Assembly: GCF_963169125.1 (NCBI RefSeq)
Contig: NC_084802.1
Coordinates: 13,516,896 to 13,580,895 of the forward strand
Direction of reading: 5' to 3'
Origin: Humulus lupulus
Lineage: Eukaryota > Streptophyta > Magnoliopsida > Rosales > Cannabaceae
DNA length: 64,000 nucleotides
Within the stretch, counting starts at the first letter, position 1; every line of letters starts with the position of its first letter. Both the position numbers and the translations under genes were made by a program. A model generated the notes under the pieces. It did not search any database and was not told where the DNA came from. It saw nothing but the letters and a program-made list of their open reading frames with translations. Below are positions 20,824-51,393 of the stretch, piece by piece.

Positions 20824-21167
20824 GCCTTCAGATCTTGTAGCAAAATTTCCACTCAGATGGCTTAACACCAAAACCACTACAACCACCACCACCACCACCA
20901 CCACCACCACCACCGACATTCACCGCAACCACCTTCAGATGCAGATCATCACCGTCAACAGCAACAACAACAACAATAATAATAGGGGATATTTGCAACA
21001 AAAATACAAAATCTTTGCTGATGGCTACACAAAATATGCACCAATACATTACATACTGATAGGACGTGTAGGGGCATGGTGGCTTATGGCGAGTATCAAT
21101 GGTGGTAGGGGCAGAAAGATGGAAGATCAAAATGAAAACTCAATGCAACAAAATGTCATCATCAGGC
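20824..21167 (-). repeat. Array unit 1 (family P)
   Basis: Minus strand opens GCCTGATGATGAC and closes ATCTGAAGGC. The changed outer pair (GCCT with AGGC) is compensatory relative to the usual GCCC/GGGC. Centre holds a long CCACCA run. Confidence 0.6.
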
Positions 21168-21447
21168 GTTAAAAAATTATTTGATAAATATTTGAGCAGC
21201 CAATATATATATATAAACAAAACAAGAATGCAATGCAAACAGATTAAGTTCATTGAAACGAAACCATTCAAAAGCATAATAGAAAAGGTAAATGCTCACA
21301 ATACAGACTGAGATGGCATTGTTAAGTAGTAGTGGTCAAATACAAAATCTTCATTAACACATTTGAATGCAACAAAATAGCATTATAAAAGATCAAATAG
21401 AAACATACATAAATATTCAAAAGAGTATATTTGCTCAGTCGAACAAA

Positions 21448-21670
21448 GCCCTCAGATCTCATAGCCAATCTGGTGATTAGCAGTATAACATGAAGAATTT
21501 TCATTATGAACCTTGTTATACCATCCAAGAGAGAGAAAACGAGATATATACGAGTATTGTTAAGGAGCAAATGGCATGCTAAGGAGCAAACGAGTAGGAC
21601 AGATGTAACAAAGCTCATGATGCAAAACCATGAAGCTGCTTCCCACAATGAGTTTTTCCATCAAATGGCC
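21448..21670 (-). repeat. Array unit 2 (family Q)
   Basis: Opens GGCCATTTGATGGAA and closes ATCTGAGGGC; the outer stem is weakened by an insertion-like change at the 5' side. Confidence 0.55.
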
Positions 21671-21776
21671 AAAAACATGTAAAGCACGGGATACCTGAAC
21701 AGTATCTTACTGTATTATATCCCCTAATGTTGTAAACCTCCATACGCTAAAGTTATATCAAAAAAAATACTAATAT

Positions 21777-21850
21777 GCCCTCAGAGATTACAGTTATAAA
21801 TTTCATGAAAATTCATTAAAAACCAATCACATCCTCAAGGCATACCACCA
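21777..21850 (-). repeat. Array unit 3, half unit (family R, CTGA arm only)
   Basis: Carries the ...ATCTCTGAGGGC arm; the TGATGA arm is missing. About 950 bp without any unit follow, so a deletion or replacement probably removed it. Confidence 0.5.
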
Positions 21851-22806
21851 CCAAAAACAAGATAAAAATAATAATGATAGAGTAAAATAGTATACATAAT
21901 CAACAAAAGTTGCACCGTAGAGGACAAACTAACAGAGAAGAAAATAACATACCAGTAATTTGAGATATCAATTGCAGGCCCTGGCATTAAAAAGGAAGCA
22001 AAGATGGAAAGGTTTATGCTGATGATAGTAAATTTTGCCAGCAAATTAAACAGAAATTTAAGAATTAACAAGAAATAATAAGTAAATTTATTCTGACAGT
22101 ATCCTTAAGTATTTCAAATAAGTTGAGTTCAAAGTAAACAATTTGTTTTTCTTATGAAACTTTAAAATTATTTTCCTGATTCTGCAATAAAAATTTGATG
22201 GCAAAAACAATCAAAGAAGAAATATCAAAAACAATTTGATAAAAATTTGATGAATCTCACCTCAATATCTCTCTTGCAGGTAATCCGATTTCAACAATTC
22301 CACACATTCATCCAACACCTCCATCTGATTATCCCTCTTCAGGCCCATCACAGGTCACTGGTTCTGATACCAATTGAGAGGATTTCCAACCAAGTTAGTT
22401 AGAACAGAGACAATAGTACAGAGCTGAATAAGAATTTCAGACAATTGTATTGAAAAATAGTCAGGATTTCGAGAACCTGAATTCTCTTCCAAGGGAATAA
22501 AACTTACTCAATTTAGCATTTATTCTACTCACTCAGTAGCACAACAAGTGCACTCTACACCTCAGCCCCACCATACACAATCCATGCACACACCCGAGCA
22601 CTCTAACTAACTCTCCTCTACTGGTTCTTTCCCTATTGCTCACCTGGCATTCTTAACCCCCTTTCTTGTGTACACGTAGGTAAGTGGAGGCCTATCATAA
22701 ACCCAATTCAACAAGTTCATCAGGCAGCTTCACTTGGATAAAAATAATTATTAATTGAGAACCAAAAAAAAAAAAAAGAACCTACAAAGAGAACAACAAT
22801 ATCAAA

Positions 22807-23014
22807 GCCCTCAGACTTTGTAGCAAAACTTGCATTATAATGTAATCACATCATCCAGAAGGGTCCACTACCACTACGACCACCACCACAACCAAACAGC
22901 AATAATAACAGGAGTAATGATATGTGAATGGAACCTTTGGAGGCTTATGGTGAGTGGGAGCAGAAAGATAAAACCAAACAGAGGACTCAAAGCATAAAAT
23001 TGTCATTATCAAGC
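22807..23014 (-). repeat. Array unit 4 (family P)
   Basis: Opens GCTTGATAATGACAA and closes AGTCTGAGGGC. Its CTGA-side arm belongs to a second P subtype (TTGTAGCAAAACTTGC on the plus strand) shared with units 11 and 25. Confidence 0.55.
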
Positions 23015-23332
23015 AAAAGGAAAAAAAAGTTCATAATTTGAAAAGCAAAAATGGCCTGAAACAGATATAGACAAAAAAACAAAACCAATGTATACAAGAT
23101 GCACTGCAAACAGATTCAAGTTAATTGACACAAAATCATCAAAAGGCATCATAGAATAGTAATCTAAAGTGAAATGGCATTGTGAAGTGGTGGTTATAGA
23201 CATGCATCCACCACATACTGAAAGAGTAAATAAAATCATGCACAGAAAGACAGGTGAAACAACAATAGAGCATTATAAAAAAATGCATTAAAAACTTCAA
23301 TATTCAAAACGGTAGATGAATGGACAATGAAA

Positions 23333-23567
23333 GCCCTCAGATCTCATAGCACATCTGGTCATTACAGTATAACATGAGAATTTTCATTACAAGCCTTAAG
23401 AGCACTCTCAATAGATAATGTGAAATAGATATTTCCTGGAGAGAGAAAGAGAGAGAAATACACACACACACATATATATATATAGAGAGAAAGAGTTTAT
23501 TAAGTAACAAGGCTTACAATGCAAAACCATGAAACCGCTTCACAAAATGAGTTTTCCATCACTGGGC
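23333..23567 (-). repeat. Array unit 5 (family Q)
   Basis: Opens GCCCAGTGATGGAA and closes ATCTGAGGGC; centre has GAGCACTCTCAATAG and a CA/TA microsatellite, marking the second Q subtype. Confidence 0.6.
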
Positions 23568-23657
23568 GAAAAAACATAGATCTTCATTTTGACTTCATAT
23601 GGACCAAACAAGTTAATATTTCGTAGCTATTTAATCATATGATCTTGATAGATAAAT

Positions 23658-23930
23658 GCCATCAGAGATTGCTAAAATTTCATGAACATTGAAAATTCAT
23701 AAAAACTAATCACATCTCAAGGTTTAAACAAAGCCACTTCAACTACCATCATCGACATGAGAAAGTAATAATAATGATTGTATTTATAAGTGTGTAATGT
23801 TTGGGTGACAATAAATATTGGACTTTTGGAGATGATGCTGTGTACCGAAGATGGTGGGAGCAGGAAAGATGGAGGTTAAAAATGAAATCAATGCGCACAT
23901 ATCAATACAAAAAAAATCTCATCATCAGGC
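23658..23930 (-). repeat. Array unit 6 (family R)
   Basis: Opens GCCTGATGATGAGA with an exact ATGATGA box; closes CTCTGATGGC. Confidence 0.6.
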
Positions 23931-24543
23931 AAACTTTGAACTTTTAATCACCATATCCCGAAAGTAACTAGCTAATACAAAAGATTTAACACAATTTAGT
24001 AAAACAAAAAACATATTTGAAATTCAAAAGTAACAAGTATTACAAAAATAAAAAATATCATGATGTTACCAACAATAATGAAGAAAATTCTCGATGAAAA
24101 CTCGTGGAATTAACTATAAACTACCAACATTTTCATCAGAGTTAATTAAACAACAATCCTTAAATTAAAACAAGAACAGACTAAGGGGGAATTAGACACC
24201 CTCCAAATTCTTTACTAGGCAATACACAGATTGAGTTAAGTTCTTTCGCTTTTCAGCACAGAAAGAAAATCATTAGAAGAAAAGATCACGCATGAATCAA
24301 AATGGAAAATTACTGCTTCTTTTTAATTTCTACTCTATTACTGTTGTATGGCTATATTCAAAAACCACATTTATTAAAAAACTAAATGCATAACACTAAA
24401 AATATTCAGAGATGTTCAAATGAATGCTGTATCATAGACAGTAAACCAAAATGGACTGGTAAACATACAAGGGTTAGTTTACAATAAATTGAGGTAGAAA
24501 CTACAAGAATAATAATTAAAAAAAAAACAACAACAATATGAGC

Positions 24544-24840
24544 GCCCTCAGATCTTACTGCACAATTTTCAATCACATCATCCAAATGGCTTTACACCAA
24601 TACCACTACAACTACCACCACAGACATTTACCGCAAACTCCTTTGAAAGGAGATCATCACCACCACCACCAACAACAACAATAATAATAATAATAATAAG
24701 AGTAAAGATATGTGCACACAAATATGCACCAAAACATCACATAGGGCACTGGTGGCTTATGGTGAGTATCAATGATGGAAGGAGCGGAAAGATGGACGAT
24801 CAAAAAGAAAACTTATTGCAACAAAATGTCATCATCAGGC
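24544..24840 (-). repeat. Array unit 7 (family P)
   Basis: Opens GCCTGATGATGACA and closes ATCTGAGGGC; U-G wobble possible in the outer stem. Centre has CCACCA and AAT runs. Confidence 0.6.
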
Positions 24841-25093
24841 ATTAAAAAGTATAGATAATGATGAGGAGCCAAATATCATATAGCCTGCAAAATGATTAAC
24901 TTCTGCAAAGTAGTGGTCAAATACAAAACCAAAACCTACTAGAAAGCAAATTTCTAGTTACTAATAACAAAGATAATCATTAGAAAAATGCAACTCAAGA
25001 CCTTTAATAACACATCTGATTAACTGGAAGCATTATAAAAACATGAAGAAACAAACATGAATATTCAAAAGAGTAAATGATCAGTAAAAGAAA

Positions 25094-25338
25094 GCCCTCA
25101 GATCTCATAGCTAATATGGTCATTAACAGTATAACATGAGAATTTTCATTACATTTGAGCCTTACTACATGTCCAACCACCCTACGAGAGAGAGAGAGAG
25201 AGAGATAAATATAAGAGTGTTGCTATTAGGCACCATAGAGTAAAGAAGAGAAAGATGCAGAGACAGAGACAGATGTAACAAGGCTCATGATGCAAACCAT
25301 GGAACTGCTTCCCAAAATGAGTTTTTCCATCACAGGAC
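25094..25338 (-). repeat. Array unit 8 (family Q)
   Basis: Opens GTCCTGTGATGGAA and closes ATCTGAGGGC; GUCC/GGGC still pairs by wobble. Inner stem GAGCCTTGTTACAT with its partner is well kept. Confidence 0.6.
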
Positions 25339-25450
25339 AAAAAACAAGTAAAGCACGTGAAACCTAAAAAACCACATAAACAATATCTTGACATAATACG
25401 TCCCCTGATCTTGTAAACCTCCAAACGTTAAAGTTATACATCCTATACAT

Positions 25451-25816
25451 GCCCCCAGAGATTATAATTATAAATTTCATGAACATCGAAAATTCATTAA
25501 GAACCAATCACATCTTCAAGGTTTAAACACCACCACTTCAACCATCACCATTACCACCACCACTACCAACAACAATGAACAAAATAATAATAATAATAAT
25601 AATAAAGGAGTAATGATATGTGCACATATCACTGTGTACTAATAATAACATTAATAATAATAACATGGCAGTGCCAGCCATCACTGTGTCATGTTTTTGT
25701 GCATATTTTGTGTGCACATATCATTACTCATAATAAAGATCGGGCTGATGATGATGGGAGCAGAAAGAGATGGAAGCTCAAAATGAAATCAATACAGAAC
25801 TAACTCATCATCGGGC
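25451..25816 (-). repeat. Array unit 9 (family R)
   Basis: Opens GCCCGATGATGAGT with an exact box, but closes CTCTGGGGGC, so the CTGA box has become CTGG. Contains a repeated TGTGCACATATCA phrase in its centre. Confidence 0.58.
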
Positions 25817-26774
25817 AGAAACAAAGATTAATTTCATTAGTTTTAGGCTTTAACTATTTGAAAGATGTTGCATTATTCTGTATTATGATACCAAAAAAAA
25901 AACGATATTAAAAAGGAAAAACACATGAAAAAACAATAAATTTGACAAGAATTACTGCACTGTCCCAGATTGATATTTGAATGGACCAAAATGCTAATTG
26001 ACATGAAACAGATTAAGTCCACTAAAACAAATAAAGTAATGGATATTATCAACAAAAGTTGAACAATAAAGGAGATAACTAACAAAAAGAGAATAACATA
26101 CCAGGCTATCAGTAATTGGAGATAAATTGGAGATATCATTTAGCAATTACAGGCTGCACATCCAGCTTTTTTCACTCCAGCCATTTTGTAGAGTAATCAT
26201 GATTTTAATTAAAGCCAGTTTACATCTTTACACACCTTGAGAGAGAGAGAACATAAACAAGAGAATAAGAAAATGTAAAACAAAGTTTAGCATTATGCAA
26301 GAGATAATGATAATAATGTAACTTGGGGAAGAAACAATCTAATTATGAAGAAATTTAAGAATTTTAACTACAAATCAAATCATAACTGAATTTTTTTTAA
26401 CATTTTGCTAAAGTATTACAAATAAAATGGAGAAGTTAGACCAAACACTTTCTTAATTTTTATGGAAATTTAAAAATACTTTCCGCAATCTAAGATACAA
26501 ATTAATACACTTTCATTGGACATTGAAGCTTTTTTTTGCACAAGAGAAACAAACGATAAAAACAAGTATTGAGAAGAAAATGCAGAGAAGAGCGTGAATG
26601 ATAGTAAAAGTTGAGAAAATGAAACACTAGATATAGATTACAAAATCCAACAAAGTTCTCCAGGCAAAAGTAAAACATGAACGAATGTTGTATTCTATAA
26701 AGAAAAATGCATGGAATTGTAGATTAAAATACAAGAGTTAGCTCATGTTCAAGAGACTGGAAGATAGACAATAA

Positions 26775-26836
26775 AATCCTCTCACAGCTAATCTGGTCAT
26801 CAACAGTATAACATGAAAATTTTCATTTTAAGCCTC
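26775..26836 (-). repeat. Array unit 10, half unit (family Q, outer box lost)
   Basis: Retains the conserved arm ending CAGATTAGCTGTGAGAGG, with CTGA lost and no partner arm. Confidence 0.5.
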
Positions 26837-27569
26837 AAGAGCACTCACAATGGCTTAAATAAAATAGACTTTTTCTGGTGAAAAAGAGAAAAGAGAAACT
26901 AAGATTGATCTAATCGGATTTAGGGATTAACTAATTGACAGATGTAGCATTAGTATGCAGAGTTGCATTAAAACAGAAAGTAAAAAATAAAGCAATATAT
27001 ATGATCAACAAAAGCTGCACCGTAACGGACAAAACTAACAGAAAAGAAAACATACCGGTAATTTAATACAGGCCATTAATAAAAAGGGGCTTTTAGAGAA
27101 ACAACCGACAAGGAAGCAAAGATGTGTGCCAGTAAATTACAACAACAAAAAATAAAATAAAGAATTTTAACAAGAAATAATAAATAAATATATTTTAACA
27201 GTATCCTGAAAGTAAACAATTTGTTTTTCTTATAAAACTAAAATATTTTCCTGATTCCTCCATACAAATTCGAAGACAAAAACATCAAATAAGAAAGATC
27301 ATCAATAATACACTTCTTTTTACACAAAAGAAACAAATGATACAAACTTCACTGGATATTGAAGCTTTCAATAGAATGAAATGCAGAGAAGAGCGTCAAT
27401 GGTAAAAGTTAATTAAAAAAAAAACAAAAAAATCACTACATATAGATATAGTAAACACAATCCAACAAGTTCATCAGGAAGATTGACTTAGACTAAAATA
27501 AGGGTCAGTTGTAATTAATTGAGAACCAAAAAACAAAAAAGAACCGATAAGAAAACAACAAATATCAAA

Positions 27570-27850
27570 GCCCTCAAACGTTGTAGCAAAACTCATATTA
27601 TAATGCAATCACGTAATCCAGAAGGTTATATCCATTACCACTACGACCACCACCATTGGCATTCACCATAACCACCGTAACCCTAAACCCTAATCATAAC
27701 CACCGACAACAACAATAATAACACAAAATGCGCACCAATTAGCATCTTTTTCTACCAAATGGAACCTTTGGAGGCATATGATGAGTGTCATGATGGTAGG
27801 AGCAGAAAGACAAAACCAGGACTCAATGCATAAAATTGTCATCACCAGGC
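27570..27850 (-). repeat. Array unit 11 (family P)
   Basis: Opens GCCTGGTGATGACA and closes CGTTTGAGGGC (TTGA). Includes a telomere-like AACCCTAAACCCTAA at 27679-27693 in the centre. Confidence 0.57.
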
Positions 27851-28119
27851 AGAAAAAAGATTAAATGGCCTAAAACAGATATGAACAATAATGAATCCAA
27901 TGTATACAAGAATGCACTGCAAACAGATACAAATTACTATATACAAAATCATCAAAAGGATCCGAGGAATAGCAATCTTAACAGATACTGAAAGAATGAA
28001 TAAAATCGAGCACAGATAAACAGGTGAAACAGCAATAAAGAATCATAAAAACTTCAATATATACACGCCCACACACGCACACACACATATAGAGAAGAGT
28101 AGAAGAATAGACTACGAAA

Positions 28120-28343
28120 GCCCTTAGATCTCATAGCACATCTGATCATTACAGGATAACATGAGAACTTTCATTACAAGCCTTAAGAGCACTCCCAATA
28201 GATAAATAGATATTTCCTGGAGAGAGAAAAAGAGAGAAATATATACACGCATGCACAGAGAGAGAGAGAGAGTTCAATATGTAACAAGGCTTATAATGCA
28301 GAACCATGAAACTGCTTCACAAATGAGTTTTCCATCACCGGGC
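28120..28343 (-). repeat. Array unit 12 (family Q)
   Basis: Opens GCCCGGTGATGGAA and closes ATCTAAGGGC, so its CTGA box is CTAA. Second Q subtype centre. Confidence 0.57.
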
Positions 28344-28446
28344 AAAAAAACATATATCTTCATTTTGACTTCATTTGCACCATTTAATATAACGGAATAA
28401 GTTAATATTTTGTAGCTATGTAATCAGCCCATCTTAATGGATAAAA

Positions 28447-28806
28447 GCCCTCAGATTTAAAAGCTAAAAATTTCATGAACATTGAAAATTCATTAGAAAC
28501 CAATCACATCTTCAAGGTTTAAACACCACCACTTCCACCACCATCATCGACATTCACCACCACCAACAGAAAACACAACATCATCATCATCATCAATACA
28601 ACCACTACTACTACTACTACCACTACCACCACCACAACCAACATGAGACAATAATTATGATTGTGTAATATTTTGGTAACAATATTATAAAGGACTTTTG
28701 GAGATGATGGTGTTTACCAATGATGGTGGGAGCAGAAAAGATGGAGGCTCAAAATGAAATCAATGCACGAACGTATCAATACAAAAATAAAATCTCATCA
28801 TTGGGC
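28447..28806 (-). repeat. Array unit 13 (family R)
   Basis: Opens GCCCAATGATGAGA with an exact ATGATGA and closes AAATCTGAGGGC with perfect GCCC/GGGC ends. Centre has TCA and CTA triplet runs. Confidence 0.62.
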
Positions 28807-29276
28807 AGAAATAACTTGTCACTTTTAAATGATCTGAATCATTTTTAAGATAAACTGATGAAGTGTCAATATGTCACAAGCAAAGTTAACCATATTCCGA
28901 AAGTACACAATTTAGTAACATGAAAAACAAAAAAAAATCAGTAGTAACATCTATTACAAAAAGAAAAGATATCATGATGTTACCAACAATAAGGAAGAAG
29001 GTAAATGATGAAAACTCAGTGGAATTACTAGAAACTGCCAAATTTTTCATGCATCATCCTTTCTAGCTAAAATAAATAAACAAATACAAAAATCACATTT
29101 AATAAAAAAAACACTAATAATATTCAGAAAAGTTCATATGAATGTTGTAACATAGACAGAAAACCAACATACATTGACTGGTAGTTTATACAAGGGTTAG
29201 TTTACAATAAATTGAAGGAGAAACTAAGAGAATAGCATTTTTTTAAAAACACCTACAAGAAAACAACAACATGAGA

Positions 29277-29558
29277 GCCCTCAGATCTCACTGCAAAATT
29301 TTCAATCACATCATCCAAATGGCTTAACACCAATACTACTACAACGACCACTAGACATTCATCGCAATCAACTTAAGATGGAGATCATCACCAACAACAA
29401 CAACAATTAAAAAGAGTACAGATATGCGCACACAAAATATGCACCAAAACATTACACACTGATAGAGCGTTGGTCACTTACTGAGAGTATCGATGAAGGT
29501 AGGAGCGGAAAGATGAAAGATCAAAATGAAAACTTATTGCAACAAAATGTCATCAGGA
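29277..29558 (-). repeat. Array unit 14 (family P)
   Basis: Opens TTCCTGATGACATT and closes ATCTGAGGGC; the outer stem is partly lost and the box region is three bases shorter than in unit 7. Confidence 0.55.
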
Positions 29559-29815
29559 ATTAAAAAGTTTAGATAAATGATTGAGGAGCCAAATATACTA
29601 TAGCCGAAAAAATGATTAACTTCTACATAGTAGAGGTCAAATACAAAACCAAAACCTACTGCAAAGTAACTTCTAGTTACTAATAATAAAGATAATCATT
29701 ATTTGTCATTAGAAAAATCTTCAATAACACATCTTATTAACAAGTAGCGTTATAAAACAACATGGATAAACAAACATGAATATTCAAAAGAAAAGAGTAT
29801 GATCAAACAAAGAAA

Positions 29816-30085
29816 GCCCTCAGATCTCATAGCTAATCTGGTCATTAACAGTACACAACATGAGAATCTTCATTATGAGCCTTTATACACCGTCTACCCA
29901 CCCTATGAGAGAGGAAGAGAGAGAGATATAAATATATATATATATATACACATACACACACGAGTATTGCTATAAGGCACCATAGAGAAGAGAAGAGAGA
30001 GACAGAGTGTGTAGGATAGATGTAACAAGGCTCATGATGCAACCCACGGAACTGCTTCCCACAATGAGTTTTTCCATCAAAGGTC
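29816..30085 (-). repeat. Array unit 15 (family Q)
   Basis: Opens GACCTTTGATGGAA and closes ATCTGAGGGC. First Q subtype with TA/CA microsatellite in the centre. Confidence 0.58.
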
Positions 30086-30193
30086 AAAAAACACGTAAAG
30101 CACATGAAACCTAAAATACCGCATAAACAATATCTTGACATATCACAGGCCCATTTCTTGCAAGCCAAGTTATATGTAGAGACATCCTAATAT

Positions 30194-30620
30194 GGCCTCA
30201 GAGATTTTAGTTAAAAATTTCTTAACATTGAAAATTCATTAAAAACCAATCACATACACCACTTCAACCACCACCTTCGGCATTCACTACCACCAACAAC
30301 AAACATAGATCATCATAGTGCTGTGCATCATCACCATAACCACCAACAACAAAATAATAATAGATTAATGATATGTGCACATATCATTGTGTAATAATAA
30401 TAATAAAGAATATAGCAGTATCCCATAATGTTTTAGTTCATATTTTGTGTGCACATATCATTACTCGTAAAAAGATTTTAGTGCCTTTTTTGTGTGCACA
30501 AATCATTACTCATAATAAAGATTGGATTTTTGAGGGTGATAAAATGTACAGAAGATGGTGGGAGCAGAAAAAGATGGAGGCTCAAAATGAAACCAATACA
30601 AAACATCCTCATCGTTGGGC
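30194..30620 (-). repeat. Array unit 16 (family R)
   Basis: Opens GCCCAACGATGAGG and closes CTCTGAGGCC. The longest unit, with three TGTGCACA-type phrases in its centre. Confidence 0.57.
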
Positions 30621-31612
30621 AGAAACATAGATTAATTTCATTAGCTTTAGGCTTTAACTAATTGTCATTAATTGGGAGAGCTGCTCTATTTTGTTTAATG
30701 ATAAAAAAATAATAATAATAATAATTAAAAAAACCTATTCAAAAAAGGGGAAAAAAACAAAAAATTTACAAGAATAACTGCATTGTCCCTGAATGATAAT
30801 TCAATGAAGCAAAATGCTAATTGACATGAAACAGATAAAGTCCATTAAAATAAATAAAGTAACGGATATGATCAACAACATTTGAACAATAAAGGACATT
30901 AATAACAGATAAGAGAATATCATACCAGTAATTACAGATATCTTTAGCAATCAGATCTCATTCGGCAATTCCAGGCCATTTTAGAGATGCATCCAACTTT
31001 TTTCACTCAAACCAGTTTGTAGATTAACCATGATTTTCATTAAAGCCAGTTTACACCTTTATATACCTTGAGAGAGAGAGCACAGAGAATGCAAAAAAGT
31101 GTAATTTCTGAATGTTTTTCTCCAACTCAACGGATGCAAAAGATAATAATAAAAATATTAACGAGGGAAGAAACAAAATTTTAGAGGAACTAATTACAGA
31201 GAAATTTAAGAATTTTAATATTATGCTAAAGTATTACAAATAAAATGGAGAAGTTAAAGTGATCAAAAACTTCTTTTTGATGAAAATTTAAAAGCATTTT
31301 CCTAAACAAAGAAGAAAGATCGTGAATAATACTTTTTTACACAACAGAAACAGAAGATAAAAATTTCATTGGTCATTGAAGCATAAAAAAAAAACAAGTA
31401 TTAAGAAGAATAAAATGCTGAGAAGATAATGAATGATAGTAACAGTTACAAAAATGAAACACTCGATGTAGTTTACACAATCCAAAAAGTGCTCCGGGCA
31501 GAAATAAAATATGAACTGAATGTTGCAATTTATTAAGAAAAATGCATTATCTTGCAGATTAAAATACAAGGGTTAGTTTATATTCAACAGACTAGAAGAT
31601 TAGACGATAAAA

Positions 31613-31804
31613 GCCTTCAGTTCTCATAGCTAATCTGGTCATTAACAGAACATGAGAATTATCATTATAAGCCTTAGGAGCACTCACAATAGCTTGTGTA
31701 AAATAGACTTTTTCTCCAGAAAAAGTAGAGAGATACATAAACATATTCATAACTAGAATGCAAAACCATAAAACTGCTTTTCAAAATGAAATTTTCCATA
31801 GGGC
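31613..31804 (-). repeat. Array unit 17 (family Q)
   Basis: Opens GCCCTATGGAAAATT, missing bases of the TGATGG box, and closes AACTGAAGGC. The shortest complete unit. Confidence 0.55.
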
Positions 31805-31965
31805 AAAAAAACATGTAAGTACGTGAAAACTATGCATTAAAAAAATTAATTAAAAAAAAGCATTATAGTAAAGTATCATCACATCCTTTCCATGCAAAAA
31901 AAAAAGTACAGAAATATATACATGCATCCTCATATCCTCATTTTGAGTTCATATCAACCAATTAT

Positions 31966-32215
31966 GCCCTCAGAGAGCTAGTTATATCATGAACATTGAA
32001 AACTAATCACATCTTCAAGGTTGAAACACCGCCACTTCAACCACCATCATCAGCATTCACCACCACCAACAGAAAACACAGAACATGGTCGTCCTTGTCG
32101 TCACCACCACATGAGAAAAAAATAACAATAAATATAAAACTTCTGGAGATGATGGTACCAAAGATGGTGGGAGCAGAAGAGATGGAGGCTCAAAAAAAAG
32201 TACTCATCATCAGGC
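31966..32215 (-). repeat. Array unit 18 (family R)
   Basis: Opens GCCTGATGATGAGT and closes CTCTCTGAGGGC, with CTGA intact. Confidence 0.6.
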
Positions 32216-32639
32216 AAAAATTTAAACGTTTAATAATCTTAATAACATTTTAAATAAGAAGCCCTAAAATATAGGAACAAAGTGAAGCATATCCCAAAAA
32301 AAAATCATAACTAGCTAATACAAAAGATTTAACACAGTTTAGAAACATGAAAAAACAAATAAAAGCAATTACAAAAATTAAAAAAATGAAGAGAAAGATC
32401 AACAACAGTTGCACCATGGACATAACTAACACAGAAAAGAGATTAAACATACTTAGATACACCCCTCTGTTCTTTTAGACAAACAATATAGTCAAAGAAA
32501 TTCAAAATTGAAACACGAATTAGAGTAAGAATGAATGAACTATCATAAACAACACAAAATGCATTGACTGGTAGTTTATACAAGGGTTAACTTACAATAA
32601 ATTGAGGAAGATACTACAAAAAAAAAACAACAATAATAA

Positions 32640-32766
32640 TAATATGCACCAAAAATTTACATAGAGATAGGGCATTTTTGGCATATGGTGAGTATCGATG
32701 TTGTTAGGAGCAAAAAGATGAAAGATCAAAATGAAAGCTCATTGCAACAAAATGTCATCCTCGGGC
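32640..32766 (-). repeat. Array unit 19, half unit (family P, TGATGA arm only)
   Basis: Opens GCCCGAGGATGACATT; the CTGA arm is not found to its left. Confidence 0.5.
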
Positions 32767-32896
32767 ATTATTTTTTTTAACAAAAAAAGATATATATTTT
32801 AACAGACAATATTACATTGATTAACTGGTGATACAACAAAGTAAAATAGAAAAACAAAGTTGAGCATTCAAAAAAGTGTATGATCAGTCAAAGAAA

Positions 32897-33184
32897 GCCC
32901 TCAGATCTCATAGCTAATCTGGTCATTAACAGAATACCATGAGAATTTTTATTATGAGCCTTGCTACACAGTCCAACCATCCTATGAGAGAGAGAGAGAT
33001 GGAGAAATACAAATATATACGAGTGTTGTTATAAGGCACCACAAAGTAGAGAAGCTAATGGGAGTGCTCTTAAAGTGGCAATCACAACAAAAGAGAGAGA
33101 GAGAGAGAGCAGGACAGATGTAGCAAAGCTCATGATGCAAAACCATGAAACTGTTTCCCACAATGAGTTTTTCCATCACAGGGC
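32897..33184 (-). repeat. Array unit 20 (family Q)
   Basis: Opens GCCCTGTGATGGAA and closes ATCTGAGGGC. Inner stem reaches about 15 pairs (ATGAGCTTTGCTACA against TGTAGCAAGGCTCAT). A good reference copy. Confidence 0.63.
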
Positions 33185-33310
33185 CAAAAACATGTAAAGC
33201 ACTTGAGACATAAAAACCCACATAAACAATATCTTAACATATCAAGACCCCTAATATTGTCAACCTCCAAACGTGAAAGCTATACGTAGAAAACATCCTA
33301 TACAAGCCAA

Positions 33311-33607
33311 GCCCTCAGATATTATAGTTATAAATTTCAGAAAAATTGAAAATTCATTAAAAACCAATCACATCTTTAAGGTTGAAATACCACCACTTCA
33401 ACCACCACCAACAGCAAACATAGAAAATCATCATCAGCATCACCACCAACAACAACAAGAAAATAATAATAATAATAACAACAACAGCAGTAAAGAATGA
33501 ACTTTTGATGATGATAATATGTACCAAGTATGGTGAGAGCAGAAAGAGATGGAGGCTCAAAATGATATCAACAAATAAATCAATTTAGAACATTTTCATC
33601 ATCGGGC
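33311..33607 (-). repeat. Array unit 21 (family R)
   Basis: Opens GCCCGATGATGAAA and closes ATATCTGAGGGC; both boxes exact and outer stem perfect. Confidence 0.63.
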
Positions 33608-33799
33608 AGAAACAAAGATTGATCTGAATAGTTTTAGCCATAAACAAATTGACAGATATAGCTTTAGATTGTAGAAAAACTATTCAAAAAGAAAGAAAAA
33701 CAAAACCAGAAAATCAAAAAATTTGCAAGAATTAATGCAATATTAATTGACATCAAACAGATTAAGTTCATTGAAACAAATAATAAAAAAGCAAATAAA

Positions 33800-33835
33800 G
33801 TAATAGATGCAACAAAATGTCAACATTTGGCAGAA
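33800..33835 (-). repeat. Array unit 22, remnant (family P)
   Basis: Only a short GCCAAATGTTGACATTTTG arm remains; placed by its position in the P-Q-R order. Confidence 0.4.
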
Positions 33836-34092
33836 AAAAATATTTGATTAATAAATTAGCAGCCAATATAGCATGTAAAGAAGTCGACAAAAACACAACC
33901 AAATATAAACAAGAATGCAATGCAAAGAGATTAAATTTATTAAAATAAAATCATCCAAATGAGAATCAAAGAAAAGTGAAATGCACACAATTCAAACTGA
34001 AATGGAATGGTAAAGTTGTGGTCAAAGACACGTGAGTAGCAAAACAGATTAAAATAAATATTTAAAATAAAGTATATGATAAGTCTACCAAA

Positions 34093-34361
34093 GCCCTCAG
34101 ATCTCATAGCTAACCTGGACATTAACAGTATAACATGAGAATTTTCATTATCAGCCTTAGTACACCGTTCAACCACCCTTAGAGAGAGAGAAATTTATTT
34201 ATATATATATATAGATATGAGCAGTGCTACAAGGCACCAACAGTGCCCAGCACAAGATAGATAGAGAGATAGAGAGAGAGAGAAAGTAGGACAGATATAA
34301 CAAGGCTCATGATGCAAAACCATGAAACTGCTTTCCACAATGAGTTTTTCCATCACAGAGC
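34093..34361 (-). repeat. Array unit 23 (family Q)
   Basis: Opens GCTCTGTGATGGAA and closes ATCTGAGGGC; a U-G pair keeps the outer stem. Confidence 0.6.
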
Positions 34362-34549
34362 AAACAACATGTAAACCACCACGATAAACCTAAAAATCAC
34401 ATAAACAATGTCTCCACATATTACAGCCTACATTACACACAAAATGTTGTGCACAAAAAATATAATAAAAGTTTAGCACAATTTTGTGTGCACATGTCAT
34501 ATCTCATGATAGTAATTATAACAATGACATAAACAATGATATGTACCAA

Positions 34550-34606
34550 AGATGGTGGGAGATGGAGCTCAAAATGAAATCAACACAACACTCGCATAAT
34601 CGAGCA
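34550..34606 (-). repeat. Array unit 24, half unit (family R)
   Basis: Minus strand opens GCTCGATTATGCGAG and continues with the GATTTCATTTTGAGC arm; the CTGA arm is absent. Confidence 0.45.
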
Positions 34607-35480
34607 AAACCAAAGATTGACAAATAACCACCAATAATTTGTAGACTCACTATAAACTGTTAAAGAATAAATTTAATAAGAAAAAAAAGGGAAAAAAATT
34701 AAATACTGCTCATTAGGAGAAAAAATATTATTTGACATCAACCTTAGTAAGTACATTAAGATAAAAAAAATACAAAAACTGTAATATAAATGATAAACAA
34801 AATTACATCATAAAGGACTGACAGAGAAGGGAATAACATACCAGTAATTTGAGATATCAGAAGGCTATTAATAAATAAAAACGGGCTTCTAGGGATACAA
34901 CAAATGTTTAAAAATCATTTTAAAACAATCTTTCTTTATTCGCTCAAAGCATAATCATGAATTCCATAATTTTCAACTGAGAGGGAAAAATAACATAAAT
35001 AAGAGAATTAGAGAGGCATAAGAGATTAAAGACAATTCATTTAATTTCTAAAATTTATTTTCACCACTATCAGATGCAAGAGAATGATAACTTAGGGAAG
35101 AAAAAATCAATTTACTCTAGCGAATAAAAATAAATTTTGCCACTGTAAGAATATTTTAGAAAAGTAAATTACAAAGAAAAGAATTTTAACAAGAAATCAT
35201 AACTAAATCTATTTTAATAGTATTGTAAAGTGTTAGAAATAAATTGTAGACTAAAACTGTCCAATCTAAGATACAAATTCCAGAACACATCAAAAGAAGA
35301 AAGATATAATACGATTTTACAAAGAGAAACAAAATACAATATTTACAACAAAGGTTTGAATAAAAAAAAAGTACTGAAAAGAATGAAATCCATTCCCAGA
35401 AAAGTATCAATGAGAGTAGACGTTAAACAACAATGTAGTACTCAATCCAACAAGTTCCTGAAGAAAACAACAATGTTGAA

Positions 35481-35770
35481 GCCACCTTGTAGCAAAACTT
35501 GCTAAAAATTCAATCACATCATTCAGAAGGTTAAACCATTACCACTACGCCCACTGCTATCGACATTCACCAAAACCACCATAAATGCACTTCCAACAGA
35601 TTATTTATTCTATCCTTTAGAGAACAACAATAATAATAGGAGTAACGATATGTTGACACAAAATATGCAGCAAATGGCCTTTGGAGGCTTACAATGAATG
35701 TTGATAATTGTGGGAACAGAAAGATAAAACCAAACAGAAGACTCGTACATAAAACTATCATCATCAGGCC
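35481..35770 (-). repeat. Array unit 25 (family P, second subtype)
   Basis: Opens GGCCTGATGATGATAG with an exact box; the far end ACAAGGTGGC has lost CTGA. Confidence 0.52.
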
Positions 35771-36044
35771 AAAAAAAAAAGTTCATAATCTAAGAAGCAA
35801 AGATTGGCCAAAACAGATAACGACAAAATCAAATCCAATGTAAACAAGAATGCACTGCAAACAGGTTCAAGTTACTTGATACAAAAGCATCAAAGGCATT
35901 GTCAAGTAGTGGTCAAAAACATGCATTATAAAATAGATTAATAATAAAGGTAATCTTTAAATAATTCTTCCTCTAATCTATTAACAGGTGATAAAGCAAA
36001 TAAAGCATTATAAAACAGAGAATAACAAACTTATATATTCAAAA

Positions 36045-36283
36045 GCCCTCAGATCTCATAAGCTAATCTGGTCATTAACAGTGTATATGAGAATTTTCAT
36101 TATAAGCCTTAATAGCACTCACAATAGCTTCTGTAAAATAGACTTTTTCTGGTGAAAAAGTAGAGAGAGAGAGAGAGAGAGCAATATATATGTATGTATG
36201 TATGTATAGAGAGAGAGAGAGAGAAGGCTTATAGTGCAAAACCATGAAACTGCTTCTGAAAATTAGATTTTCCATCACAGGGC
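36045..36283 (-). repeat. Array unit 26 (family Q, second subtype)
   Basis: Opens GCCCTGTGATGGAA and closes GATCTGAGGGC. Centre has GAGCACTCACAATAG, then GA and TGTA runs. Confidence 0.62.
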
Positions 36284-36405
36284 AAATAAGCATGCAAAGA
36301 AAGTGAAAACTAACAAAAAAAAATGACAATATCTTCATCTTATTACATTACGCAATAAAATATATATTTTGTAGCTATAAAAAGAGACCATTTTAATATA
36401 TAAAT

Positions 36406-36727
36406 GCCCTCAGAGACTAATGCTAGAAATTTCATGAACATTGAAAATTCATTAAGAACCAATCACATCTTCAAGGTTTAAACACCACCACTTCAACCAT
36501 CACCTTTGGCATTCACCACCACCAACAGCAAACACAGATCATCATCATCATCACCACAGCCAACATGAGAAAATAATAATAAATAAATAAATAAATAAAA
36601 TAAAATAAAATAATGGACTTTTGAAGATGATGGTGAGTACCAAAGATGGTGGGAGCAGAAAAGATGGAGGCTCAAAATGAAATCAATGCACATATCAATA
36701 CAAAAATAAAAGTTCTCATCATCAGGC
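36406..36727 (-). repeat. Array unit 27 (family R)
   Basis: Opens GCCTGATGATGAGA and closes TCTCTGAGGGC. Last family R unit before the Q-only stretch. Confidence 0.6.
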
Positions 36728-37606
36728 ACAAAGTAATCTAGAAACAAACTAAAGAACTGTGGAAAAAAAACGTATATAATTAATAAAAAAAAAAATTACA
36801 AAAGACCCAATAAAAGAAAGTTATTAAAGGAAAGAGATTGTAGATATGACAACTTTACTCAGTAAAAAGAACAATGAAAATACATATATGATGAAGCAAA
36901 TTTTAAATTTTAATCATCTAAACAACATTTCATATAAAAAGTACCAAAATATCAAATGGCAAAGTTAAAAATAGACCAAAAATATGAAGTCATAACAACG
37001 CAATTAAGAAAAATACAAATTTTGAAATAAAAAAAGTAATAAGAACACTTGCAAAAAAAAAATTGCAACATGAACAACTAACAAAGAAACGAAATCAAAA
37101 CATAGCAGTCATTTGAGATAAAGCCCTCAATTCTTTTAGACATACACGTTTTAAAATCATATTAAAATGGAGCCTTTTTTATACTCAAGCACATAACCAT
37201 GATTTTCATTAAAACCATTTTGCATCTTCACCAATCTAGAGAGAGAATGCAAAGAAAAAAAAAAGATCATCTTGTTACCATCTAAAGATGAAAACGTTTA
37301 TGATGAAAAATCATGGACCCATTTGAAACTACTACTATTTTCATCATTGGGCTAATGAAACTACAATCCTCAACATTAAAACAAGAACATAGACAAATAC
37401 ATTTTACTAAGCTATACACAGATTGAATTTAGTGCAACAATTCAACTCGTTCAGAACAATTCACATAAAATAAGATTTTACAATTCTACTGATTCAAGTA
37501 ATGAATATTTTATGTCAATCAATGATAAAACATAAAGGGTGTTAATAGTACACTGAGGAACATATTAACATACAACAGTACATGTAACATATAATAGTTA
37601 TTAAAA

Positions 37607-37833
37607 GCCCTCAGATCTCATAGCTAAATCAGATCATTAACAAAATAACCACCGACTTTTCATCAACGCCATTCTACATCTTCAATAACCTCGTAAGAGA
37701 GAGAGAGAGAGAGAGAGAGAGGATAAAAAGAAGAAGATGATGATAATGAAGATGATGAGGCAAAAAAGACGTAGCGGCTCATGATGAAAAGCCAAGGCAA
37801 TGTTTCCAACATTGAGTTTTTCCATCACAGGGC
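37607..37833 (-). repeat. Array unit 28 (family Q)
   Basis: Opens GCCCTGTGATGGAA and closes ATCTGAGGGC; inner arm text differs (ATTTAGCTATGAG). First of four Q units without P or R partners. Confidence 0.6.
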
Positions 37834-38174
37834 AAAGGATACTACCATATGTAAAACCCACTAACATTAAAAAGGAAAATACTGCAAGATCAACTTTACA
37901 GCTTACAAATAAAAAATCAGTACATAAGTTATATTGTAGACATCATTAGTTACTAATCATGGATTAAGTTCAGTTCGACATTACATATGATTTTTCAAGA
38001 GTATATGAGTGAGGAAGAGAGCACAAGGATTGCGACCAGGATCCATCTCAGTGAAGATGTTGACACAGTAAAAATGTCATCACAAATCAGCAACTCAAGT
38101 TATACATTATCTAAGAATCCGTAATGGATGTGAACAACCATTGAGGAAACACAAATTCATTATAGAAGTAACAA

Positions 38175-38447
38175 GCCCTCAGATCTCATAGCTATATCAG
38201 ATCATTAACAATATTAACCACAGATTATTTTCAAACCCCATTTACATCTTCACCCACCTCGTAAGAGAGAGAGAGAGTAGTGGTAGTAGTAGTAATAGTA
38301 GTAAAGAAGGAAAGAAAGAGAGATAGATAGATAGATAGATCTGAGGGTGGTGGTGGGCAGCGATAATGAGGCGGCAAAGATGTAAAGGGCAATTATGAAA
38401 AACCAAGGAGAATTTGTTTCCAACAATGAGTTTTTCCATCACAGGGC
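38175..38447 (-). repeat. Array unit 29 (family Q)
   Basis: Same box pair as unit 28. Centre has GA, GTA and GATA runs. Flanking DNA closely resembles that around unit 30, suggesting recent duplication of this block. Confidence 0.6.
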
Positions 38448-39059
38448 AGAAACACTATTATACATGATATAATCATATTGAAAAGATCAGTGAACAATAC
38501 AATGCAGAAATAAACACGAAAATGAAGTGAAAGTTCCTCCCTTAGGTTCATATAAAGCTTTCTAGGATGCATGTCCATCAATTAACGCAGCTAAAAAACT
38601 ACTCATAAACATTTGCCATCATCTATTATGGAACCCATTAACATACCAAACCAGAACAACAAAATAACATTTAGTGAGAAAAATGCAAAGAAAAAAGCTC
38701 AAACTAGAGCCATAATCATAGAGATTGAGTTCGGTTGGAAATTAAATATGATTTTTCAAGAGAATGCGAGTGAGGACGAGAGCTAAAGGATTGCAAAAGA
38801 TAGGTAGAGCGAGAGTATGAGAAACAATTAAATTTGCAATACAAACAACCAGAAACTAACCTAGTGATGTTATTTAGAAGTTGTAAACAAATGGGAATGG
38901 GACAAGTTAAAATATCGTCACAAATGAGAAACTCAAAGTCAGACGTGATCTAAGGATACGGTACAAAGTAACAGATGTGATCATCCACTGATGAAACAAA
39001 CAGACATTAGAGAAGTAACAAGAAAAACCCATTAAATGTAATCACTGTATTATTAGAAA

Positions 39060-39146
39060 GCCCTCAGATCTCATAGCTATATCAGATCATTAACCTTGTT
39101 AACCACAGATTTTTCTTCGAAGCCCATTTACAACTTCACCCACCTC

Positions 39147-39193
<47 letters not shown>

Positions 39194-39339
39194 AATAAAG
39201 AAAGAAAGAAAGAAAGAAAGAAAAAGGGAGATATAAATGGTTATGGTGGTGGTGCTAATGAGGCGGCAAAGATGTAAAGGGCAATGATGAAAAGCCAAGG
39301 AGAATTTGTTTCCAACAATGAGTTTTTCCATCATAGGGC
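39060..39339 (-). repeat. Array unit 30 (family Q)
   Basis: Opens GCCCTATGATGGAA and closes ATCTGAGGGC. Centre carries a (GA) run of about 40 bp followed by a GAAA run. Confidence 0.6.
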
Positions 39340-39761
39340 AAGAGCACCATCATACACGCTATGATCATCTTAAGAAGTCAACTGAAAGATCAGCGAACGA
39401 TACAATGCAGAAAATGACACGAAAAATGAACTAAAGTTCGTTCCTTTAAGAGAGTGTGTTCACATAAAGCTTTCTAGGCTGCATAGTCCATCAATTACCA
39501 CAGTAAGAAAACTGCTCAGAGCCCAGTGCATTTATCATCATTCCTTCAAGACCCCATCAACAGAACAACAAAATAAACATTTAAAAAATAAATAAAGCCA
39601 TAATCTTCCTACAAGACACTAAAAAAAATCATTGCTATAATCTTTAAAAAAAAAAATCAAACAAAACGCTAAAGGAATGGCTTCACTTCACAACACAATT
39701 TTAACCTGGTTTGGAGCTATACATTCTAAAATGTGTATAAAAAAAAAAAAACATGCAGAAA

Positions 39762-40024
39762 GCCCTCAGATCTCATAGCTTTAAAAAAGACTCATCTGCA
39801 GAAGAAGATAATGGGTGCTTTTCAGAAGCCCTAACACGCCACCACCGTACCACCTGCAGTGAATGTGTGTGGATTTGTATATGTGTATATATATATGAAT
39901 GATGATGAAGTAGTAGAAGTAGTAGCAGTAGCAGGAGCAGTAGCAAAGATGGTGGCGACAGCGGGTTAAAGCTCGTGAAAACATGAACCATGCTCATTTT
40001 GATTTGAGTTTTCCATCGTCGGGC
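39762..40024 (-). repeat. Array unit 31 (family Q, promoter-proximal)
   Basis: Opens GCCCGACGATGGAAAACTC and closes ATCTGAGGGC. Interior differs most from other Q copies and includes CCGCTGTCGCCACCATC on the minus strand. If the array is one transcript, this would be its first unit. Confidence 0.58.
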
Positions 40025-40220
40025 CCCAAAATGTAAAAAATAAGACGAAGTGAATAAATAGAAGTTGAAGGTTGTATTTTTGCGAGACTTGAACTGCCGA
40101 AAATACCCTTCGGCGGGAAATTGTTTGAGCCCCATGGCCGATTATATTATTATTGTAGGCTCTCGGGAAAAACGATGTGTTAGTATACTAATCCAATTTT
40201 ATACTATACGAATCCAATCT
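40025..40220 (-). promoter_or_regulatory. Candidate minus-strand promoter of the array
   Basis: Reading minus, ACACATCG (near 40180) weakly resembles the plant snRNA upstream element. An AT-rich ATAATAATATAA follows about 26 bp on. An E2F-like TTTCCCGCC lies at 40112-40120. Position immediately before unit 31 and the common unit orientation suggest a start here. This is inference from motifs only. Confidence 0.3.
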
Positions 40221-46953: not shown

Positions 46954-47064
46954 AGTAACAATCAGGCTTCTACTAGCCAGAGGGCAGCTGCGCCATAACC
47001 TGCTCAAAATAATAATTCCCGAGCAAGAGAAGAAGATAGGCCCCCTCCAATTGATGGAGAAGAC

Positions 47065-47524
47065 GTGATAACCATCTTGGGCGGGCCTCATCTCGCAGGG
47101 ACGGGCAGGAATGCCCAAAAGCGGTATGTGAATGAGCTAAAAACTGGGGACGGGTCCCCCTATGAACCCGAACCTAGAGCTCCAAAGTGCCAAAAGATTG
47201 AATCTCAGCCGATAACCTTTACCGAGGACGATGCGTCCCATGTTCAGTTTCCCCACAATGACCCACTGGTCATCACTCTCCAGCTCGCGAATAAGAGAGT
47301 TCACCGAGTTCTCATAGACAATGGGAACTCAGTGAACATTCTCTATAAGGCCACCTTTGAAAAGATGGGACTCGCGCTTCGAGACCTAAAAGCCTGTGCA
47401 ACGACCCTGTACGATTTTTCAGGAGAGGGGATTGCCTGTATGGGGTCCATTGAACTCCCGGTAACCTTGGGAGACTACCCAGTCTCAGCAACCAAGATGA
47501 TGGAGTTTGTAGTAGTGGACCTGC
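47065..47524 (+). pseudogene. E2 aspartic protease, altered and interrupted
   Basis: The frame contains PLVITLQLANKRVHRVLIDN followed by GNSVNIL. The usual active-site triplet D-T/S-G reads D-N-G. The domain should continue with a ...NVLLGRP segment; it does so only after the Athila insertion (resuming at 54448, STYNVLLGRPALVGLG). The protease normally cuts the Gag-Pol polyprotein. Confidence 0.75.
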
Positions 47525-48758: not shown

Positions 48759-48764
48759 AGTTTT

Positions 48765-48782
48765 TGGCGCCGTTGCCGGGGA
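48765..48782 (+). other. Athila primer binding site (tRNA-Asp type)
   Basis: TGGCGCCGTTGCCGGGGA begins seven bases after the LTR, the standard Athila primer site. Confidence 0.85.
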
Positions 48783-49029
48783 CTGAAAAATTATCAATAT
48801 TAAAATAGTTAATTTTATTTCTAATTTGGATGTTTTTTTTTACATAATTTCTAATTTGTTTGGCTGCAGTTGTTCTTTATCTCAGGTATTCTCCTTATAT
48901 GCGCAGTAGAAGGGGAGTTGACAGTCAAAGTCCAATTAATCTTGAGATTGAGAAAGAGTACAAGCGAAACAGAAAAAACAAGAGGGTTGAAAGTTCCACT
49001 GTTGTTACAGCAGTTATTAATAAAACAGT

Positions 49030-51084: not shown

Positions 51085-51393
51085 AAGGGGGAGTTACGGT
51101 TGCGAGTCCAAAATGAGGAAATAAGTTTTAATGTCTTTGCAACAACTGAAATTCCTACATGTTGTAGAGTTGATGTGGTGAATGATTGTCAAGAATCAAT
51201 TGGTAAAAAGAAGAAGAAGACCAAAGAACAATTTCGAACAGTTCGACGTCGTATGAAAAGATTATTGTGTGGCAAGTTTGAAGGTTTCGATGACATTGGG
51301 GATAATTTCAATATTCTCAACAATAGAAGGGAATTCTCCTCGTATGACACGATGGCTCTCAAGGATGCAAGGGGTGGACTTGACCCGAGTTGA

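Follow-up and report, generated by a model that had tools for sequence, protein, structure and literature searches.

A minus-strand array of box C/D-like hairpin units beside snoR118 in hop, probably an amplified polycistronic snoRNA-type gene

A 19-kb stretch of the hop (Humulus lupulus) genome, at 40024–20824 on the minus strand of the window (the whole stretch of 64,000 nucleotides that was analysed), carries a tandem array of long box C/D-like units, and this array is probably a polycistronic snoRNA-type gene that has been amplified in tandem, with many decaying copies. We infer transcription, processing, protein binding and function of the units along the following lines. A single promoter upstream of the first unit, A1, would drive a long minus-strand transcript containing the known snoRNA snoR118 and about 27 homologous units. 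Where a unit is intact, its C and D boxes would combine with an NRU bulge and the terminal stem of 4 bp into a kink-turn; this kink-turn would attract the core box C/D proteins and define both termini of the mature RNA. The hairpin between the boxes would keep its base and leave its loop free to take up microsatellites, and the products would be stable nuclear box C/D-capped hairpin RNAs of about 190–430 nt. Type A keeps ten near-invariant bases directly before the D box, where a methylation guide would lie; type B does not keep them. As many units are decaying, the array probably works only in part.

Organization of the array

The preliminary description of this DNA had proposed a minus-strand tandem array of about 31 units in a plant genome, falling into three families whose centres had drifted to different microsatellites while boxes and arms were kept, and whose units were longer than usual box C/D RNAs. 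The plant genome and the tandem layout were confirmed; about 27 units can be delimited, the remainder being relics, and families A, B and C are indeed the main ones, with a fourth type, D, represented by one unit here and two in a second array. The array has 23 occurrences of the pattern GCC[CT]N{0,3}GATG[AG] and 19 of [TA]CTGAGGGC, all of them on its minus strand and none on its plus strand. In 200 dinucleotide shuffles of the array the two patterns averaged 0.37 (maximum 3) and 0.05 (maximum 1), respectively, and outside the array only the upstream minus-strand flank has any (three of the first and none of the second), the other three flanks having none of either. The 27 delimited units (13 A, 7 B, 6 C and 1 D) have little in common between families except the two unit ends. 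The differing microsatellite centres were also borne out, with (CT)n in type A and runs of TTA, GTT or GGT in types B and C. Box C/D snoRNAs are usually about 60–150 nt long, with a few longer ones such as U3, so that length is typical and not strictly defining; the array units, at 192–427 nt, lie outside this usual range, as had been claimed.

All features of the array are on the minus strand and are given in its reading direction. The first units are interleaved with snoR118 and a decayed copy of it: A1 (39762–40024), snoR118 (39457–39545; Rfam RF01424, 69.5 bits, cut-off 44), A2 (39060–39339), the decayed snoR118 copy (38545–38626; RF01424, 34.5 bits, under the cut-off), A3 (38175–38447) and A4 (37607–37833). 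These are followed by D1 (37123–37352), of the fourth type and with a D box TTGA, B1 (36406–36727), A5 (36045–36283), C1 (35480–35769), which has lost its D box, A6 (34093–34361), B2 (33311–33607), A7 (32897–33184), B3 (31966–32215), A8 (31613–31804) with a damaged C box, B4 (30194–30620), A9 (29816–30085) and C2 (29277–29558), whose C box is damaged as well. The remaining part contains B5 (28447–28806), A10 (28120–28343) with a D box CTAA, C3 (27570–27850) with a D box TTGA, a type A relic (26780–26962) found by a covariance model match of 64.5 bits, B6 (25451–25816) with a D box CTGG, A11 (25094–25338), C4 (24544–24840), B7 (23658–23930), A12 (23333–23567), C5 (22807–23014) with a C box AATGA, A13 (21448–21669) and the final unit C6 (20824–21167). 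The order B-A-C recurs among the families, and the top block repeat matches 31736–29084 to 26899–24356 with 74% identity.

snoR118, the second array and the upstream regions

About 115 kb from the array of the window there is a second one. Its unit A1' is 82% identical to A1, and each array has snoR118 flanked by units of its own strand (A1 and A2 in the window), so that a known snoRNA stands in the same row and strand as the units, as in a polycistronic snoRNA gene. Another Rfam hit above its cut-off, snoR71 (RF00097) at 49553–49447 (minus strand), lies antisense within a Ty3-type gag frame and was rejected as a chance or retroelement match.

Upstream of A1, a promoter-like region (40025–40154, minus strand) has 0.70 identity to the second array, falling to 0.43 farther out. 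The single alignment behind these values was used for the upstream region only; in it, A4 is apparently misaligned (identities 0.48–0.59, with about half gaps or more), and the spacer between A1 and snoR118 (0.86) is as conserved as A1. An E2F-like sequence, TTTCCCGC, lies at −96, and matches to the TATA list lie elsewhere, at −123, −179 and −289, while the motif scan of this region contained neither telo-box nor Site II. The region upstream of the first unit of the second array has a telo-box AACCCTAA at −73, the TATA-list match ATAAAT at −99 and Site II at −149, the combination that PMC4660826 reports for polycistronic snoRNA genes in plants.

Kink-turn register of the unit ends

The consensus ends common to the families are GCCY-NRT-GATGR on the 5′ side and CTGA-GGGC on the 3′ side, which places them in the register of a kink-turn of the box C/D kind, closed by a terminal stem of 4 bp. 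The elements of a box C/D RNA, namely the C box, the D box and the terminal stem in the register stem-NRU-GA...CUGA-stem, are thus found together, in agreement with the claim of box C/D-like ends and a closing stem. The terminal stem has at least three pairs in all 27 units, and NRT is present in 23, GATGR in 24 and CTGA in 22 of them; all four elements are present in 15 units, and in each of the other 12 one or more of them (boxes, bulge or D box) is missing or changed. Unit A1 has the kink-turn elements except for the bulge (GAC), together with the hairpin and its match A1'. In the second array, the register is complete in nine of the 11 units, with GATGR in 10 and CTGA in all.

Among type A columns, conservation is 0.97 in the kink-turn and 0.99 in the ten bases before the D box, compared with 0.80 in other arm columns; in type B the ten bases reach 0.71. 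Two rRNA patterns sought for a guide-target comparison had no match in the hop genome, and one of the two had none in viral contigs either; internal C'/D' boxes, judged by eye, are imperfect candidates only, located beside the hairpin.

Inner hairpin and compensatory changes

Between the boxes lies a long hairpin with a microsatellite-filled loop. The A1 hairpin (−42.6 kcal/mol) is more stable than all of 200 shuffles; for six of 26 hairpins, over 10 of 200 shuffles do as well. The C box is masked in the lowest-energy fold of several A units.

Paired changes in the stems were present in the inner stem of type A, where seven pairs are changed on both sides against 2.9 in shuffles, a number that none of 500 shuffles reached. 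A further type A shuffle test reached the number of changed pairs in 12 of 500 and the pair types in 37 of 500. In a tree-keeping simulation of type A, which comprised 18 of 19 rows (without A7') and whose null does not begin from paired columns, so that its "paired" measure is not meaningful, the observed value was 0.058 against 0.012 ± 0.008 (reached in none of 500), and the number of changed pairs was reached in two of 500. The compensatory changes of type A thus exceed the shuffled, slid and tree-keeping controls. Covariation is weak in types B and C, in which 62 and 52 of 500 shuffles, respectively, reached the number of changed pairs; the A structure was taken from unit A7 and the B and C structures from the respective alignments, an advantage to them on cells paired.

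Long inner hairpins such as that of A1 would also be expected if the units were siRNA or miRNA-like precursors that lie in a snoRNA cluster by chance, with the C/D-like ends as an aid to processing or stability, and snoRNA-miRNA dicistronic genes of Arabidopsis are described in PMC4660826. This explanation is improbable, as the array contains no match to an Rfam miRNA family above the family's cut-off and the best-kept columns of type A are those of the kink-turn and the ten bases before the D box, not the other arm columns. Protein coding was rejected because the frame from the C-box ATG varies between 14 and 67 codons over the 13 A units, with shifts. The CT tracts of the A units, followed by AG, resemble 3′ splice sites; no kept splice donor that would go with them was seen by eye.

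Dispersed copies

The preliminary description had treated homologous copies scattered genome-wide with target duplications as the mark of a transposon. The scatter itself was found: of 81 exact copies of the 18-mer from the 3′ end of A, 66 belong to neither array and are spread over many contigs, and a CACTACACCAAACACC terminus (with two mismatches or fewer) occurs in eight of the 34 loci examined, which came from the 41 of the 66 places that were fetched, and is exact in six. CACTACACCAAACACC termini are presumably the ends of CACTA-type transposons. These observations would suit the units being a transposable element, a reading that is nevertheless very hard to sustain, since 33 of the 34 loci are pieces of the array including its spacers (79–94% identity), with joins common to different loci and breakpoints within units, and since the termini do not coincide with unit ends. 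Full-length A1, moreover, is found in two places only, both of them arrays, among the 40 of 75 candidates that were scored. Among the fetched copies, none was a single unit with target duplications flanking its GCCC and GGGC ends. Both CACTACACCAAACACC termini were not found at one locus among those fetched, nor was a second terminus in a further 5 kb beyond one of them (L035). Because they are array pieces with spacers, several with CACTA-type ends, the dispersed copies look captured from the array, rather than being its source. The array spacers and shared breakpoints likewise led to rejection of the units as retroposed single RNAs, and capture by a Helitron was dropped once the CACTACACCAAACACC termini were seen. 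CACTA transposons capture gene fragments; they would account for the dispersed copies with CACTACACCAAACACC termini, not for the array itself.

Conservation of the ends relative to spacers

Between the two arrays, identity is 0.85 at the unit ends, 0.90 in snoR118, 0.79 in the centres and 0.78 in the spacers, a moderate contrast between ends and spacers. Unit ends are also kept above spacers within the window array, as judged from ten block pairs that are not mutually independent, and the claim that arms are better conserved than spacers therefore holds at both levels. In 24 dispersed copies the corresponding identities are 0.96, 0.93, 0.95 and 0.96; the contrast is lost, and it is therefore not a property of the sequence itself. 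This control comprised 24 of the 34 loci, with L047 and L048 representing L017 and L024, and left out L009, L013, L021, L025, L038, L042, L044, L045 and L046, all of them short or composite, and L034, which is an older copy at 72%. As its copies were chosen by the exact 18-mer, 20 bases at the 3′ end of A were tallied separately.

These identities bear on whether the array is mostly dead, that is, whether unequal crossing-over multiplied one working unit, or a few, close to the promoter (A1, snoR118), so that most copies are pseudogenes with ends shared by common descent. The 12 units with altered boxes, bulge or D box, the relics between units and the reduced promoter copy of the window all fit such a history. 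It is unlikely all the same, in view of the ends kept above spacers within and between arrays, the disappearance of this contrast in the dispersed copies, and the compensatory changes among A units of the later array.

Comparison with known systems and implications

The amplified polycistronic snoRNA-type gene favoured here resembles the polycistronic C/D genes of plants, such as the snoR66-snoR118 cluster that this hop genome has at C2:282.1 Mb, in having the same snoR118 and several RNAs in a row on one strand and, for the second array, in carrying telo-box, Site II and TATA elements ahead of its first unit. Those genes contain a few guides of 70–110 nt, whereas the units of the hop array number about 27, are long, homologous to one another and in no Rfam family, and extend over tens of kilobases.

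Tandem, diverging box C/D units in families are also found in SNORD115/116 of mammals, whose units are short, intronic and imprinted, in contrast to the hop units of 192–427 nt with a hairpin; the likeness is an analogy of layout only. Imprinted loci of mammals are known to hold large tandem arrays in which C/D RNAs diverge, and the function of these arrays is still debated. A literature search yielded no report of such a plant array, which is not proof of its absence from print. Tentatively, and with more doubt than for the amplified gene, the units may represent an unreported plant RNA class of C/D kink-turn-capped long hairpins, which would have originated in the hop lineage beside a snoRNA gene and would form, in two arrays and three families, orphan C/D RNPs with lineage-specific roles, as an independent parallel to SNORD115/116. 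A plant array of similar size would allow a comparative test of the selection that keeps such arrays, with the second array and putatively neutral transposon-borne copies as comparison material in one genome, and box C/D biology would be extended to long hairpin RNAs with freely evolving loops.

Two longer RNAs offer further parallels. U3-type RNAs are long box C/D RNAs in which a C/D kink-turn closes a domain with long hairpins, a design that the array units would share; the array has no Rfam match to U3, and the B and C boxes of U3 were not recognised in it by eye. HID1 is 236 nt long. In the excerpts of PMC8053127 and PMC6095000, HID1 is a structured non-coding RNA in an Arabidopsis polycistronic C/D snoRNA cluster. 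As described there, it differs from the hop array in its partner snoRNAs and in that no array is reported, and it is likened here by description, not by sequence; like the array units, it is a longer non-coding RNA of similar length among C/D snoRNAs, with which it is co-transcribed.

Organization and anatomy of the array

The array on the minus strand of the window (40024-20824) probably belongs to a polycistronic gene of the snoRNA type that makes a long hairpin RNA capped by box C/D elements; this gene would have been amplified into two arrays and have diverged into families, with many copies in decay. Delimitation yielded 27 units of 192-427 nt; the array recognized in the preliminary description stands, but the remainder of its approximately 31 units are relics. 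From the start, the order is A1, a snoR118 copy (a known plant snoRNA), A2, a decayed snoR118, A3, A4 and D1, followed by B, A and C units in a repeating order with relics in between. The three families first described correspond to A, B and C, to which a further type, D, has to be added (D1; D′ and D″ in the second array). The families are unlike in their centres and share a start, GCC(C/T)-N(A/G)T-GATG(G/A), and an end, CTGA-GGGC. Counts in the array for the minus vs plus strand are 23 vs 0 for the 5′ motif (shuffle mean 0.37) and 19 vs 0 for the 3′ motif (shuffle mean 0.05). As the repeats take in spacers as well as units, the best block (31736-29084 against 26899-24356) showing 74% identity over 2.7 kb, the array grew through the copying of blocks that each held several units.

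The unit ends form a 4-bp stem; next come a three-base bulge, confined to the C side, and then the boxes. This arrangement matches the register known for box C/D kink-turns. Every scored element of this register is kept in 15 of the 27 window units, bearing out the GCCC and GGGC bounds with C-like and D-like boxes noticed at the outset. The D box is altered in A10, B6, C1, C3 and D1 and the C box in A8, C2 and C5, and the bulge departs from the pattern in A1, A9, A13 and B4. In the second array, nine of 11 units keep every element, D′ and D″ each being without one. Boxes, stem and register are those of box C/D snoRNAs, but the length of 192-427 nt is not the usual one. With the mammalian SNORD115/116 arrays, the likeness is in layout only.

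Inner hairpin and paired changes

A long hairpin lies between the boxes of the unit. In A1 it reaches -42.6 kcal/mol vs -22.6 for shuffled arms, which never equal it (0/200). At most one of 200 shuffles equals the hairpin in 11 of 13 A units (exceptions: A5, 27; A8, 54) and at most three in six of seven B units (exception: B7, 18). For C1 to C6 the corresponding numbers are 3, 114, 7, 30, 28 and 5. The loops are mostly simple repeats, consistent with the earlier remark that centres have drifted to microsatellites while boxes and arms are kept. Inside the loops of B6 (25608-25729) and B4 (30363-30511), both on the minus strand, inverted arms GAGTAATGATATGTGCAC / GTGCACATATCATTACTC were found; they are MITE-like insertions tolerated there, and account for a sub-threshold MIR4371 match.

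The preliminary description had proposed paired changes as a check, and these are found in type A, but are weak in B and C. The type A structure comprises 25 pairs (the terminal stem, two kink-turn pairs and 19 inner-stem pairs). In the window array, 86% of cells are paired and seven pairs show both-side changes, vs 2.9 in shuffles (0/500) and at most three with partners slid. With the second array added, 84% are paired, both-side changes occur in eight pairs (reached by 12/500 shuffles; at most five slid) and the score is 0.184 vs 0.122 (0/500 shuffles). A tree simulation on 18 type A units, which keeps the number of changes per column, gave 0.012 ± 0.008 against an observed both-side score of 0.058 (0/500). 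For types B and C, four and five such pairs are reached by 62/500 and 52/500 shuffles, respectively; many of their pairs are invariant. The C box of several A units is paired with a downstream CAUCAU when the unit is folded to its lowest energy; covariation favours the inner stem over that fold, but the two may compete.

Conservation and dispersed copies

Within the window array (aligned columns, ten block pairs), the outer 60 nt of each end agree at 0.90, centres at 0.84 and spacers at 0.81, so that the arms are better conserved than the spacers, as anticipated. The second array lies about 115 kb away on the same contig and strand, beginning with A1′ at C28:13672541 and continuing with snoR118′ (60 bits), A3′, A4′, D′, B1′, A5′, B2′, A7′, C′, D″ and A9′. 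Between the two arrays, agreement is 0.85 for ends, 0.90 for snoR118, 0.79 for centres and 0.78 for spacers. Measured likewise on 24 of the 34 dispersed loci fetched, the values are 0.96, 0.93 (108 columns), 0.95 and 0.96. The contrast between ends and spacers is thus maintained in the arrays but lost in the dispersed copies, although these are too young for fine contrasts.

Wide scattering of copies had been named as a sign of a transposon. Of 81 genomic occurrences of the 18-mer GCTATGAGATCTGAGGGC (0 when read backwards), the window array accounts for 10, the second array for 5 and other places for 66, so copies are indeed scattered, but in 33 of the 34 loci, which hold 41 of the 66 dispersed places, the best match is an array piece at 79-94% identity (30 at 84-94%); L034 is a 72% copy. 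Most carry spacers and composite joins that recur between loci. A terminus CACTACACCAAACACC, which has the form of a CACTA transposon end, is present in eight of the 34 (L011, L014, L019, L023, L024, L026, L033 and L035; six exact, two with one or two mismatches), with three different bases adjoining each. Since these termini lie on copies of array pieces, a CACTA-like element appears to have captured parts of the snoRNA array and spread them through the genome; neither a second terminus nor a target duplication was seen at these loci. The element at L035 and L049 has further open frames, one with a weak Clathrin_H_link match below cut-off and another tRNA synthetase-like by eye with no Pfam match.

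Upstream region and snoR118 relatives

Upstream of A1 the two arrays share 0.70 identity over 130 nt; beyond, identity falls to 0.43 and homology is over. The second array has a reversed Site II at -149, the E2F-like TTTCCCGC at -138, ATAAAT/TAAATA at -99/-98 and a telo-box, AACCCTAA, at -73. In the window array, TTTCCCGC is retained at -96 and TATA-list words fall elsewhere (-123, -179 and -289), and a motif scan of its upstream region found neither telo-box nor Site II. Telo-box, Site II and TATA are the element set reported for plant polycistronic snoRNA genes (PMC4660826); all three occur at the second array, and the window array is without the first two.

Scoring of 40 out of 75 candidates found full-length A1 in the two arrays only; a short simple repeat makes up 73 of the 76 search matches. 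Neither A1 nor A1′ had an Rfam family at cut-off. snoR118 adjoins snoR66 at C2:282.1 Mb; other copies above cut-off lie at C2:64.67, C2:64.05 and C3:23.0 Mb, and one slightly below at C28:203.9 Mb. The first is an ordinary snoR66-snoR118 pair (L051, C2:282108939 region) and perhaps the source of the array's snoR118. Near C2:64.05 Mb, snoR118 is followed by a decayed A-type unit, with an A1 fragment 4.5 kb upstream; this region is a third, degraded locus.

Possible roles

Anatomy, conservation, type A paired changes, linkage and promoter elements were observed. The array would be transcribed, its RNA trimmed to the C/D core, and the products would act in the nucleus. Over 19 units of both arrays, type A agrees at 0.97 in kink-turn columns, 0.99 in the ten bases immediately 5′ of the D box and 0.80 in the other arm columns; because of those ten bases it is a candidate methylation guide. 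Type B (nine units; 0.95, 0.71 and 0.83) looks like an orphan. The Arabidopsis non-coding RNA HID1, to which type A might be related, is likewise part of a C/D cluster (PMC8053127 and PMC6095000).

Surroundings

Ty3-type retrotransposon pieces (gag, protease, reverse transcriptase, RNase H and integrase) occupy 46117-59233 (plus strand). The Rfam snoR71 model scores above cut-off at 49447-49553 (minus strand), antisense within the gag frame, and may be picking up retroelements. At 61289-62904 (minus strand) are three open frames with no Pfam match, one having hop relatives named uncharacterized. A flanking reading frame has 13 protein matches, of which the four named are all from Humulus lupulus, pointing to hop as the species; two of the four match at 83% across 96-100% of the query, and the others cover 46% and 20% of it. 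Contigs C28 (267 Mb) and C27 (188 Mb) are out of size order; in this dioecious plant they might be the sex chromosomes, and the array on C28 possibly sex-linked.
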